Below the pieces are notes generated by a model, which had not been told where the DNA came from, made no database searches, and saw only the letters and a program-made list of their open reading frames with translations. This document shows, piece after piece, positions 48 through 33,073 of a stretch of 40,251 nucleotides of DNA. The DNA is from Bacillota bacterium (GTDB lineage Bacteria; Bacillota; Clostridia; Christensenellales; UBA1242). Made by a program: the position numbers and the translations under genes. Location: the NCBI GenBank assembly GCA_009780375.1, contig WRAD01000008.1:1-40251 (forward strand). Reading direction: 5' to 3'. Position 1 is the stretch's first letter; every line of letters starts with the position of its first letter.

Positions 48-132
48 GTATTTACCAACAAATTTCTTATACAAAAAAGTTTTTCCCGTATATAATTATA
101 TGTGTGTAACCTTCAAAAAGACTATTTGATGC

Positions 133-203
133 TCTAGGAATTATCGCTAAATTTTTTGTACTAAAATCTCGGCTGAAACGCACCGTATGCATGCTTTTGT
201 TCC
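133..203 (+). repeat. Intergenic repeat element, copy R1 (long type)
   Basis: This 71-nt segment runs from TCTAGGAAT to TTTTGTTCC and ends 12 nt before the -35 of the dnaE promoter. It matches copy R2 (32078-32149, minus strand) along its whole length at roughly 80% identity by eye. Shared blocks include ATCTCGGCT, GCACCG and GCTTTTGTTCC. The left CTAGGAAT and the right GTTCCTGG (the latter running 3 nt past the element) can pair over 8 bp with two G-U pairs, suggesting a structured RNA or a short inverted-repeat element. Its first 27 nt also match copy R5 at 25 positions. I cannot assign it to a known family. Confidence 0.7.
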
Positions 204-215
204 TGGTACAGAGGA

Positions 216-244
216 CTGACAAAATTCAACATATATGCTATATT
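216..244 (+). promoter_or_regulatory. dnaE promoter, leaderless configuration
   Basis: CTGACA (216-221), a 17-nt spacer and TATATT (239-244) form a sigma-A-type promoter. Only 6 nt separate the -10 from ATG at 251, so transcription should start at or next to the A of the start codon. Confidence 0.75.
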
Positions 245-250
245 GGTTCA

Positions 251-3200
251 ATGAGTTTTGTACATCTACACATTCACACCGAATACTCGTTGCTTGATGG
301 TGCAACAAAAATTTCCCATGCGGTTAAACATGCAAAAGCACTCGGTATGCCTGCACTTGCAATAACCGATCATGGCAATATGTATGGCACGTACAAATTC
401 TATAAAGAATGTAAGAAACAAGGCATCAAGCCACTTATAGGTTGTGAGTTTTATTGCGTAGACGATTTAAATGCACGTAACCACAAAGAACACCGCGGGC
501 ATCTTGTGCTTATTGCAAAAAACAACACTGGCTATATAAACCTCTGCAAGTTAAGCAGCACCGCCTGGACAAAAGGCTTTTACTTCAAACCACGAATAGA
601 CTATAACTTTCTTGCCAAACACTCCGAAGGCTTGATTTGTCTAAGCGGCTGCTTGGGTGGACATATCCCTCACTATCTTATGAAAGGGATGTATGACGAA
701 GCAAAAAAATATGCAATCTTTTTAAAGGAAATATTCGCAGACGACTTTTACATAGAATTACAGAATTTTTTTCACCCAGATAATGAACTTACAAACCCAC
801 TTATGATAAAGATGGCGGATGAACTTGGTATCCAAGTCGTCGCAACAAATGACGTTCATTATATCAACAAACAAGATGCCGAACTTCAAGATGCACTTAT
901 GTGTGTCGAGATGAAAAAGACTTTTGATGACCCAAATCGTATGCGTTTTCCTGGACAAGAATTTTATATGAAAACACACGACGAAATGAGTGCACTTTTC
1001 CCAGACACTCCAAAAGCAATCTCGAATACACTCGTCATCGCCGATAAATGTGATTGCCATCCATTTGGGCGGCAAAATTTATTACCTGTTTATGTAATTC
1101 CCTCTGAATTCAAAATGTCCAATGACGAATATTTTCGAATGCTTATTGAACAAGGGCTTGTTGAACGTTATGGCAAAATAACCCCAGAAATCAAAGAACG
1201 ATACGAACACGAATTTAAAATGATTGCAGGCAACGGTTTTACCGATTATTTTCTAATAGTCGCCGATTTCATGAAATATGCAAATGACCAAAGCATTGCG
1301 GTAGGCCCAGGTCGAGGCTCGGGGGCTGGATCAATTATCGCATACGCACTTAACATAACAAAACTCGATCCATTCAAATATAATCTTCTCTTTGAACGCT
1401 TTTTGCATAACGAAAGAATCACAACACCCGACTTTGATCTTGATTTTTGTTGCAACAGACGTGAAGAAATCATCCAATACGTAAAAGATAAATACGGTGA
1501 AACAAATGTCGCACAAATTGTAACCTTTGGAAGTTTGGCGGCAAAGGCGGCAATCAAAGATATTGCAAGGGTCTTTCAAATCCCCTATGCCGAGGTTGAC
1601 AAGATTACAAAGCCAATGCAATTTGGTCAAACCGTGCGTCCTCCTGTGCTTCCTTACGTTTTTGATCAAATCAAAGTTTGGGATCCAAAAAAAGAACCAG
1701 ATTTTAAAACACTCGATGAAAAAGAACAAGACAGAAGACTTGATGCATATCGTAAAGAAAAATCAAAGCTTGATGAACTTCGCAATAATGATCTTGTTGC
1801 ACTTTATAACAACGACGAAAATGTCAAAAAAGTTGTCGACATGGCAATCAAGGCCGAAGGCTTTCCACGCAACTGTTCCACCCATGCATGTGGTGTAATT
1901 ATTTGTAAAGAAGTCGTCGGTGACGTTACCCCACTTCAAAGAAATGGCGAAGATGTAACGACCCAGTTCGATATGAAAGAACTTGAAGAACTTGGTTTTT
2001 TAAAAATGGATTTCCTTGGACTCATTACACTGACAGATATTCAAATGACACTTGACCAAATACATAAACTTTCCCAGTTTACAAGTGGTTCCAAACCAAA
2101 AATAGATTTTTACAAAACCCCTTACACAGATTTGGATGTATATAAAATGATTTCAACGGGCGATACCGATGGCGTATTTCAAATGGAAACAGGCGGATTT
2201 AAAAAATTCTTACAACAACTAAGACCAGACTGTATCGAAGACATCATTGCGGCCGTATCTTTATACCGACCTGGACCTATGGATATGATCCCCGACTATT
2301 GCAAGAACAAGCATAATCCAAAACTTACAAAATATGATCATCCTATGCTTGAAAATATTTTAAAAAATACCTATGGTCAAATCGTCTACCAAGAACAAGT
2401 CATGGACATATTTCGTGTTATGGGCGGTTATTCATTGGGCCAGGCAGACATGGTGCGACGTGCAATGGGAAAAAAAGATATTAAAGAAATGGACAAACAG
2501 AAAGACATTTTTATCTATGGCGACCCTAAACTTAATATAAGTGGTGCTATGTCCAAGGGTGTTAAAAAAGAAGTTGCAAAATTAATCTTTGAAAAGATGG
2601 CAAAATTCGCAGGATATGCATTTAACAAGAGCCACGCCGCGTGCTATGCATATATCGCATATCAAACCGCTTACCTTAAAAAATATTATTACCCTTATTA
2701 TATGGCGTCGGTGCTTAATAACCGTGTTAACAAATTTGATCAAATGACATTTTATATCATGTCTATTCGCAACAATGGAACAGAAGTTTTACGCCCAGAC
2801 ATAAACAAAAGCAACACGTATTTCAGTGTCGAACATGAAGGCATAAGATTCGGCCTTGGTGCGGTCAAAAATGTGGGTACCGCCCTTGTCGAGAGTATCT
2901 TAGAAGAACGTGAAAAAAATGGTGACTTCAAAGACTTTCAAGATTTCTGCGAACGTGTAGAATGGAATGTACTTAACAAACGTTGTCTCGAAAGTCTTAT
3001 TCTAAGTGGTGCCTTTGACAGTTTCGGTAAACGAAGCCAATTCATGAACGTCTATCCGACAATTGTAAAACAAATTGCAAATCATAAAAAAGCAACAGAC
3101 AGTGGACAAATGTCACTCTTCGCACTTGCAAGTGACGCAAGATTCGAGGCGATTCATTTGCCAAAAATGAACGAATTCGACGATGCATCAAAATTAAAAT

Positions 3201-14247: not shown

Positions 14248-14274
14248 ACAAAAAATTTAGCAAAAATTCCTAGA
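14248..14274 (-). repeat. Intergenic repeat element, copy R5 (partial, long type)
   Basis: Read on the minus strand, this 27-nt segment matches the first 27 nt of R1 at 25 positions, including GCTAAATTTTTTGT. The similarity stops after that. It starts 9 nt after the tpiA stop and is oriented along tpiA transcription. Confidence 0.6.
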
Positions 14275-18334: not shown

Positions 18335-18357
18335 ATTCGCAAATAACCATTAATATC

Positions 18358-18390
18358 TTCCTTAATGTCCACGCATGTATAATTCCTAGA
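18358..18390 (-). repeat. Intergenic repeat element, copy R3 (short type)
   Basis: This 33-nt segment is identical to copy R4 (19470-19502) except for one base. On the minus strand it begins TCTAGGAATTATACATGCG and ends TTAAGGAA. It lies between the terminator of the lipoprotein gene and the ileS promoter, along the direction of transcription. A 16-nt stretch around its start, ATGCTCTAGGAATTAT, is also identical to the start of R1 (129-144). Confidence 0.65.
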
Positions 18391-19414: not shown

Positions 19415-19443
19415 GCAAAAAAAGAAGCAGAAGTAGAAGACAA

Positions 19444-19459
19444 GTTCGCTCAAGCGAAC
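19444..19459 (-). terminator. Probable terminator downstream of the CBS gene
   Basis: GTTCGCT and AGCGAAC form a perfect 7-bp stem with a 2-nt loop, followed on the minus strand by a C/T-rich stretch with a run of T. The T-run is some distance away, so termination efficiency is uncertain. Confidence 0.5.
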
Positions 19460-19469
19460 CTTTATTCTT

Positions 19470-19502
19470 TTCCTTAATGTCCGCGCATGTATAATTCCTA
19501 GA
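19470..19502 (-). repeat. Intergenic repeat element, copy R4 (short type)
   Basis: Same 33-nt element as R3 with one T-to-C difference. It starts 3 nt after the stop of the CBS gene, before the hairpin at 19444-19459. Both copies contain ATG CGY GGA CAT TAA after AGGAA, and their single difference is silent in that frame. Confidence 0.65.
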
Positions 19503-32077: not shown

Positions 32078-32149
32078 GGAACAAAAGCACGCAAGCGGTG
32101 CATTAAAGCCGAGATCCTAGTGCAAATGATTGAAGCGATAGTTCCTAGA
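32078..32149 (-). repeat. Intergenic repeat element, copy R2 (long type)
   Basis: This 72-nt segment matches R1 over its full length on the minus strand and likewise ends with GCTTTTGTTCC shortly before a promoter, here that of tRNA-Val. Its ends GGAAC and GTTCC are exactly complementary. The corresponding R1 pair is GGAAT/GTTCC, a change that keeps pairing (C-G to U-G). It lies between the aqpZ terminator and the tRNA promoter. Confidence 0.7.
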
Positions 32150-32155
32150 TTGTGA

Positions 32156-32177
32156 AAAAAGCCCGTTAGGGCTTTTT
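32156..32177 (-). terminator. Intrinsic terminator of aqpZ
   Basis: AAAAAGCCC and GGGCTTTTT form a 9-bp stem with a GTTA (TAAC on minus) loop 31 nt after the aqpZ stop, followed by T residues on the minus strand. The sequence is nearly symmetric and could work in both directions. Confidence 0.85.
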
Positions 32178-32208
32178 AAACAACAGTTCTAAAATAATAA
32201 ACCTTGTA

Positions 32209-33039: not shown

Positions 33040-33073
33040 AAGAACAAAAGCACCTTACAGTGCTTTTGTTCTT
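33040..33073 (-). terminator. Long hairpin at the end of sipL
   Basis: AAGAACAAAAGCAC and its exact complement form a 14-bp stem with a 6-nt loop beginning in the sipL stop codon. There is no T-run after it on the minus strand, though the 3' arm is itself T-rich. The arm sequence GAACAAAAGCAC also occurs at the end of repeat R2 and, with one change, R1. Confidence 0.65.

Follow-up and report, generated by a model that had tools for sequence, protein, structure and literature searches.

Two stretches of about 70 nt, R1 and R2, lie close to promoter-like sequences in the window (the whole 40,251-nucleotide stretch of DNA analysed here). They raise the question of what sort of element they represent; the original prediction offered two options, a structured RNA and a short mobile element with inverted repeats. 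Our data indicate that R1 and R2 are very probably two of about 50 copies of a non-autonomous, MITE-like repeat of 69-71 nt that has proliferated in this species.

R1 and R2 are copies of a dispersed repeat

R1 is a full-length copy of 70 nt upstream of dnaE (133..202, plus strand). R2 is a full-length copy of 71 nt located between the terminator of an aquaporin gene and the promoter of tRNA-Val (32079..32149, minus strand). The two copies are 80.6% identical over 72 columns (blastn, E = 1e-13), and the window contains exactly two occurrences of their common core, ATCTCGGCTNNAANGCACCG, compared to 0.04 in shuffled sequences, confirming that the repeat is real. As predicted, both copies have the same orientation relative to the downstream gene, R1 pointing toward dnaE (ATG at 251) and R2 toward tRNA-Val (31999-31924). 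Their differences, read from the alignment, are 8 transitions, 5 transversions and 1 gap, for which "mostly transitions" was a fair description. A promoter-like match lies after each copy (CTGACA-17-TATATT at 216-244 after R1; TTGTCA-17-TATAAT at 32060-32032 after R2). It should also be noted that the dnaE match ends at 244, with the ATG at 251 (window 216-251), and that dnaE may be leaderless; the dnaE open frame has an earlier ATG at 191, within R1.

The assembly under study (G000) comprises 688,659 bases in 21 contigs and is 65% complete; contig C21 (2734 bases) is N throughout, and the other contigs carry all counts. A covariance model, which the original prediction had named as a check, detected 51 copies in this assembly and none in 59 relatives, four of them of the same genus. 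An iterated profile HMM gave 57 matches in G000. The density is about 1 copy per 13.5 kb. The DnaE proteins of the congeners are 64-71% identical to that of G000. A DNA search of 296 other genomes of the order returned no convincing match; the sole non-self match among the 297 order genomes spans 26 nt, which we read as chance. Neither 85,462 species genomes nor viral contigs contain the exact core pattern, and no similar sequence was found in phage or plasmid records.

The consensus is TCTAGGAAYTATCGCT(TCAATCATTTG or -AAATTTTTTG)TACTAGGATCTCGGCTNNAAYGCACC-loop-GGTGCTTTTGTTC, 69-71 nt in length, with a mean column identity of 87% across copies. Copies start with TCTAGGAAYTAT and finish with a short terminator-like hairpin followed by TTTTGTTC, so that the two ends can be abbreviated as TCTAGGAATTAT (left) and TTTTGTTC (right). 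The right end of R1 consists of the hairpin region GCACCGTATGCATGC and then TTTTGTTC (180..202, plus strand); the right-end hairpin of R2 is GCACCGCTTGCGTGC (32087..32101, minus strand). Truncated copies are also present in G000, and one in the window, just behind tpiA, retains the first 27 nt only (14248..14274, minus strand). In a long variant, the 12-nt left end is separated from the remainder by about 57 additional bases, which contain GGACATTAAGGA...hairpin...KGTC. Two long-variant copies lie in the window: one has the left part TCTAGGAATTATACATGCGCGGACATTAAGG...GGTTCGCTTGAGCGAACTTGTC and is missing its 3' part (19430..19502, minus strand), and the other is truncated and lies upstream of ileS (18345..18390, minus strand). 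Tandem copies follow one another with a 73-nt period and three YRN-like bases in between. All four combinations were seen for 27% of variable-column pairs at most 6 nt apart, compared to 85% of pairs farther apart. This mosaicism of the copies suggests gene conversion or template switching.

Left ends lie behind T-runs and terminators

Single left ends (n = 40) sit directly behind the context TTTTTTAYRN, in which T occurs at 75-93% from -10 to -6, A at 65% at -4, Y at 88% at -3 and R at 98% at -2. TTTT is found at most 14 nt upstream of 78% of left ends, compared to 15% of random intergenic sites. Compared with other intergenic T-runs, the upstream 36 nt also show stronger folding (p = 0.003), with 48% below -6 kcal/mol compared to 24% of T-run controls. 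In about half of cases the tail of an intrinsic terminator lies directly before the left end. R2 is one such case: its left end is abutted by the tail of the aquaporin terminator, AAAAAGCCC-TAAC-GGGCTTTTTT (32154..32178, minus strand), and then CACAA, which together form the landing context. The left flank of R1, ACTATTTGATGC (121..132, plus strand), is a poor fit to the usual TTTTTTAYRN and ends in the common TGC. The right end of the repeat, TTTTGTTC, itself resembles the landing context. We did not detect a target-site duplication, as the three flanking bases are equal in 1 of 31 non-tandem copies and 0.77 are expected by shuffling. A search of the available literature returned no direct precedent for repeats inserted behind intrinsic terminators.

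Gene calls in G000 follow a simple longest-ORF rule. Among the 35 intergenic copies for which both neighbours are known, 12 lie in convergent gaps, which make up 16% of intergenic bases, and 5 lie in divergent gaps, which make up 27%. Promoter adjacency, which the original prediction had noted, is thus found at R1 and R2 and is not a property of the family. Since few copies occupy divergent gaps, the closeness of R1 and R2 to promoters reflects their chance location.

These positions could also be explained if the host maintained the repeat as a terminator or insulator, with the right-end hairpin backing up termination between genes. The right end does consist of a hairpin and TTTTGTT, many copies are located behind terminators and in convergent gaps, and the right-end hairpin is also found on its own, in the palindrome at 33042-33071. 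However, the stem has about 5 pairs with a short T-run and is broken in several copies, other copies lie within genes or in divergent gaps, and many copies are preceded by a terminator that was already there. We therefore consider host maintenance improbable. The palindrome itself, GAACAAAAGCAC-TGTAAG-GTGCTTTTGTTC (33042..33071), is perfect, presents the family right-end sequence on both strands, also stands alone at C9:34347-34379 of G000, and is probably a bidirectional terminator.

Copies within genes are in frame

Four intact copies are located within genes (glmM, clpX, a trxB-like gene and a gerAC-like gene). All are antisense and in frame, and they sit behind T-runs of the template strand. 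Each adds 24 residues, encoded as EQKHxTVRxSRDPSTKNLxIIPRL, to a linker or tail. By Pfam, the GlmM insert falls between domain I (ends 137) and domain II (starts 200), the ClpX insert lies ahead of the AAA domain, the TrxB-like insert falls between Pyr_redox_2 (ends 302) and Thioredoxin_3 (starts 503), and the GerAC-like insert is in the N-terminal tail. A fifth, degraded copy (C1:22038) is found in a protein with no Pfam domain. GlmM of the congener G002, about 40% identical, can be aligned on both sides of the 24-residue stretch and does not have it. The glmM DNA junction, ...GTAGAACAAAAGCACC...TTCCTAGACTATTAAAAAAATTG, is the T-run context on the opposite strand. The ClpX and TrxB inserts are supported by their domain positions, the congener sequences being partial or diverged there. 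Two further ORFs (C1:107588 and the beginning of C14) are doubtful as host genes since the copy precedes the likely start codon in each.

All five in-gene copies have a length divisible by three, compared to 5 of 28 elsewhere (Fisher p = 0.001), and the 70-nt variant has a TGA in the in-gene frame. We found no third-position excess that would point to coding selection on the peptide, with variation of 0.165, 0.185 and 0.141 at codon positions 1-3; judging from these values, the peptide is not selected as such. Given the equal variation over codon positions and the lengths divisible by three, the survival of copies within genes probably reflects the filtering of random insertions.

Evidence for mobility

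The mobile element suggested by the original prediction agrees well with about 51 dispersed copies, tandems, a fixed context, an ortholog free of the insert, and absence from congeners. The family shares with MITEs the trait of being short, non-coding, multi-copy and dispersed (51 copies of about 70 nt), and it has no MITE-like terminal inverted repeat beyond GGAAY/GTTC. With neither a target-site duplication nor a genuine terminal inverted repeat, the family gives no indication of classical DDE transposition. The copies are rather diverged (87% identity), so mobility may be past.

We searched for an enzyme that could mobilise the repeat and found none in the 65%-complete G000. The Y1 (HUH) transposase domain PF01797 is absent from five incomplete genomes of the genus, in searches whose controls were positive. 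Reverse transcriptase (RVT_1), IS110 and TnpB were not found in the incomplete G000 assembly. Lists of all ends in G000 revealed no autonomous element between a left and a right end, and an all-against-all protein comparison, with clusters judged by size and neighbours, showed no evident multi-copy transposase. An rve-domain transposase and a gene resembling a rolling-circle replication initiator are present at C2:18968-20056 and C2:20300-21385. No repeat ends lie near this rve transposase, nor was a parent transposon with these ends found in the 65%-complete assembly. The repeat ends are unlike the consensus of integron attC, group II intron or IS605. These three origins were set aside; neither RT nor Y1 genes were found in the incomplete assembly.

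The lack of a duplication, the right-end hairpin and the target-like right end might be traces of a single-strand mechanism. We suggest that a putative enzyme acting in trans would recognise the repeat ends, perhaps on single-stranded DNA or as a hairpin, and would place the repeat behind T-runs. The repeat probably has no general regulatory job, and any influence on neighbouring genes, for example as an additional weak terminator, would be a side effect.

Spread by selection is a different explanation for a dispersed family, with a chromosome-organising or regulatory protein binding to the repeat. A spacing of about 1 copy per 13.5 kb would suit such a role, and the internal near-repeat CTAGGAATTATCGCT / CTAGGATCTCGGCT possibly represents two half-sites. 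Nevertheless, occurrence in one species only, the fixed context, the tandems, and the in-gene and truncated copies fit mobility better, and we regard a binding site as very improbable.

The MITE-like repeat was compared with known systems. Rickettsia palindromic elements (RPE) are 105-146 bp long, with long stem-loops and terminal inverted repeats of about 12 bp, and lie between genes and in frame within conserved protein genes without evident loss of the protein (PMC2229807, PMC10969869). The G000 family is likewise a short dispersed repeat, both intergenic and in frame in conserved genes, that adds a peptide. Unlike RPE, it is 69-71 nt long, folds poorly, has 4-5 nt of terminal complementarity, is apparently unrelated in sequence and lies behind T-runs. 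SPRITE elements of S. pneumoniae have an 18-bp duplex and a long U-rich tract; they are terminator-like, enriched in convergent gaps, show no detected target-site duplication, and insert next to or into one another (PMC3049150). The terminator-like end, the excess in convergent gaps, the lack of a duplication and the adjoining repeats are shared by the G000 family, whereas its stem is about 5 bp with TTTTGTT, its sequence is unrelated, and in-frame gene insertions are a main feature. BOX of Streptococcus pneumoniae resembles it in its modular build, the BOX modules being internal and optional (PMC3049150), and both BOX and RUP are unrelated to it in sequence. ERIC/RU-1 and Correia elements are MITE-like, with open frames fused to genes, terminal inverted repeats and target-site duplications (PMC2229807). 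Correia also has a frame-open class (107 bp) found in genes (PMC2229807), comparable to the 69-nt variant here, but the G000 repeat differs from ERIC/RU-1 and Correia in having neither a terminal inverted repeat nor a duplication. It is set apart from IS200/IS605-derived repeats (REP, PATE) in that no Y1 was found in the five incomplete genus genomes. Lacking a terminal inverted repeat, a target-site duplication and a strong fold, the repeat falls outside RPE, SPRITE and BOX by the features tested, and we file it as a bacterial small interspersed mobile repeat.

The repeat does not behave as a structured RNA

The other proposal of the original prediction, a structured RNA, was not supported. 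Across 29 copies, fold strength has a mean z of -0.01 relative to dinucleotide shuffles, there is no covariation above shuffles, and Rfam gave no real match at curated or permissive thresholds. The terminal pairing GGAAY/GTTCC, on which that proposal drew, is present in both R1 and R2. It does not extend to the family: among 31 non-tandem copies, GTTC is followed by T in 21 and by C in 4. The C-to-T change that was said to keep the pairing only turns G-C into G-U. The terminal helix GGAAY/GTTC is paired in 94% of cells solely because these columns are almost invariant; none of its pairs shows a compensatory (two-sided) change, and the helix is disrupted, without compensation, by changes at columns 6 and 71. 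The terminal pairing was therefore rejected as a conserved stem, and there is no support for an inverted repeat longer than 4-5 nt. The 3' hairpin GCACC/GGTGC, ahead of TTTTGTTC, is paired in 91% of cells with one two-sided change (GCATC/GATGC), which weakly suggests a terminator-like hairpin, itself weak.

We dismiss as the least probable explanation a structured cis-acting RNA (riboswitch or leader) acting on the downstream gene. In its favour, R1 precedes dnaE and R2 precedes tRNA-Val, both in the same orientation, and a short 3' hairpin is present. Against it, the folding, covariation and Rfam results are negative; at R1 and R2 the promoter-like site lies downstream of the repeat, leaving the repeat outside that transcript; many copies are found in convergent gaps or antisense within genes; and orthologous families in congeners have no repeat.

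Sister species carry different repeats in similar places

A de novo repeat search covering 580 kb in G003 and 540 kb in G002 revealed that both congeners carry their own repeats, different in sequence, many of which adjoin terminators. The G003 unit is about 111 nt; one end, TTTTTTAT|GACCTAGGAAAAATCG, abuts a terminator, and the opposite end is in a terminator of its own. The congener repeats and the G000 long variant have in common a module consisting of GGACATTAAKGA, a spacer, a hairpin of variable sequence and RGGTC(AT). With one mismatch, TTTTGGACATTAAKGA occurs 12, 23 and 7 times in G002, G003 and G004, respectively, compared to 0 for the reversed control, and is at background level outside the genus. 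Sites of the module include L103:8311, L129:2830- and L124:9719 in G003 and L107:18380 and L145:7777 in G002, with others in G004; in the G000 long variant it is seen, for example, at window 19502-19430 (minus strand). The module often begins right behind a hairpin and T-run. It has no match in Rfam. Its stems are wholly different between copies and its flanks constant, which gives it the appearance of a genuinely structured element.

One tentative, and in our view rather doubtful, interpretation is that a genus-wide process, with no target-site duplication and no known transposase type found, continually seeds tiny species-specific repeats behind terminators or T-runs. The terminator-like end of each repeat would then offer the next landing site, giving rise to chains, and units within genes would be kept in linkers of essential proteins (ClpX, GlmM).

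In-frame selfish repeats in housekeeping proteins are best known from Rickettsia, and gene fusions of ERIC and Correia are also listed (PMC2229807). The G000 family provides a separate case, in a small-genome lineage of Bacillota, with a clear landing rule (TTTTTTAYRN, often a terminator). Sister species with different repeats in similar places make the site choice of such repeats testable. Whether repeats add usable protein segments can be tested as well, and the in-gene copies already provide protein pairs that differ in the presence of the insert.

The genus-wide module also occurs, in frame, close to the N-terminus of a G000 protein (C2:46706-48253, module at 46777), which we take to be a tryptophanase/tyrosine phenol-lyase (TLDIKDNLSKCSQGERVIK). 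Repeats of more than one family may therefore have inserted into genes.
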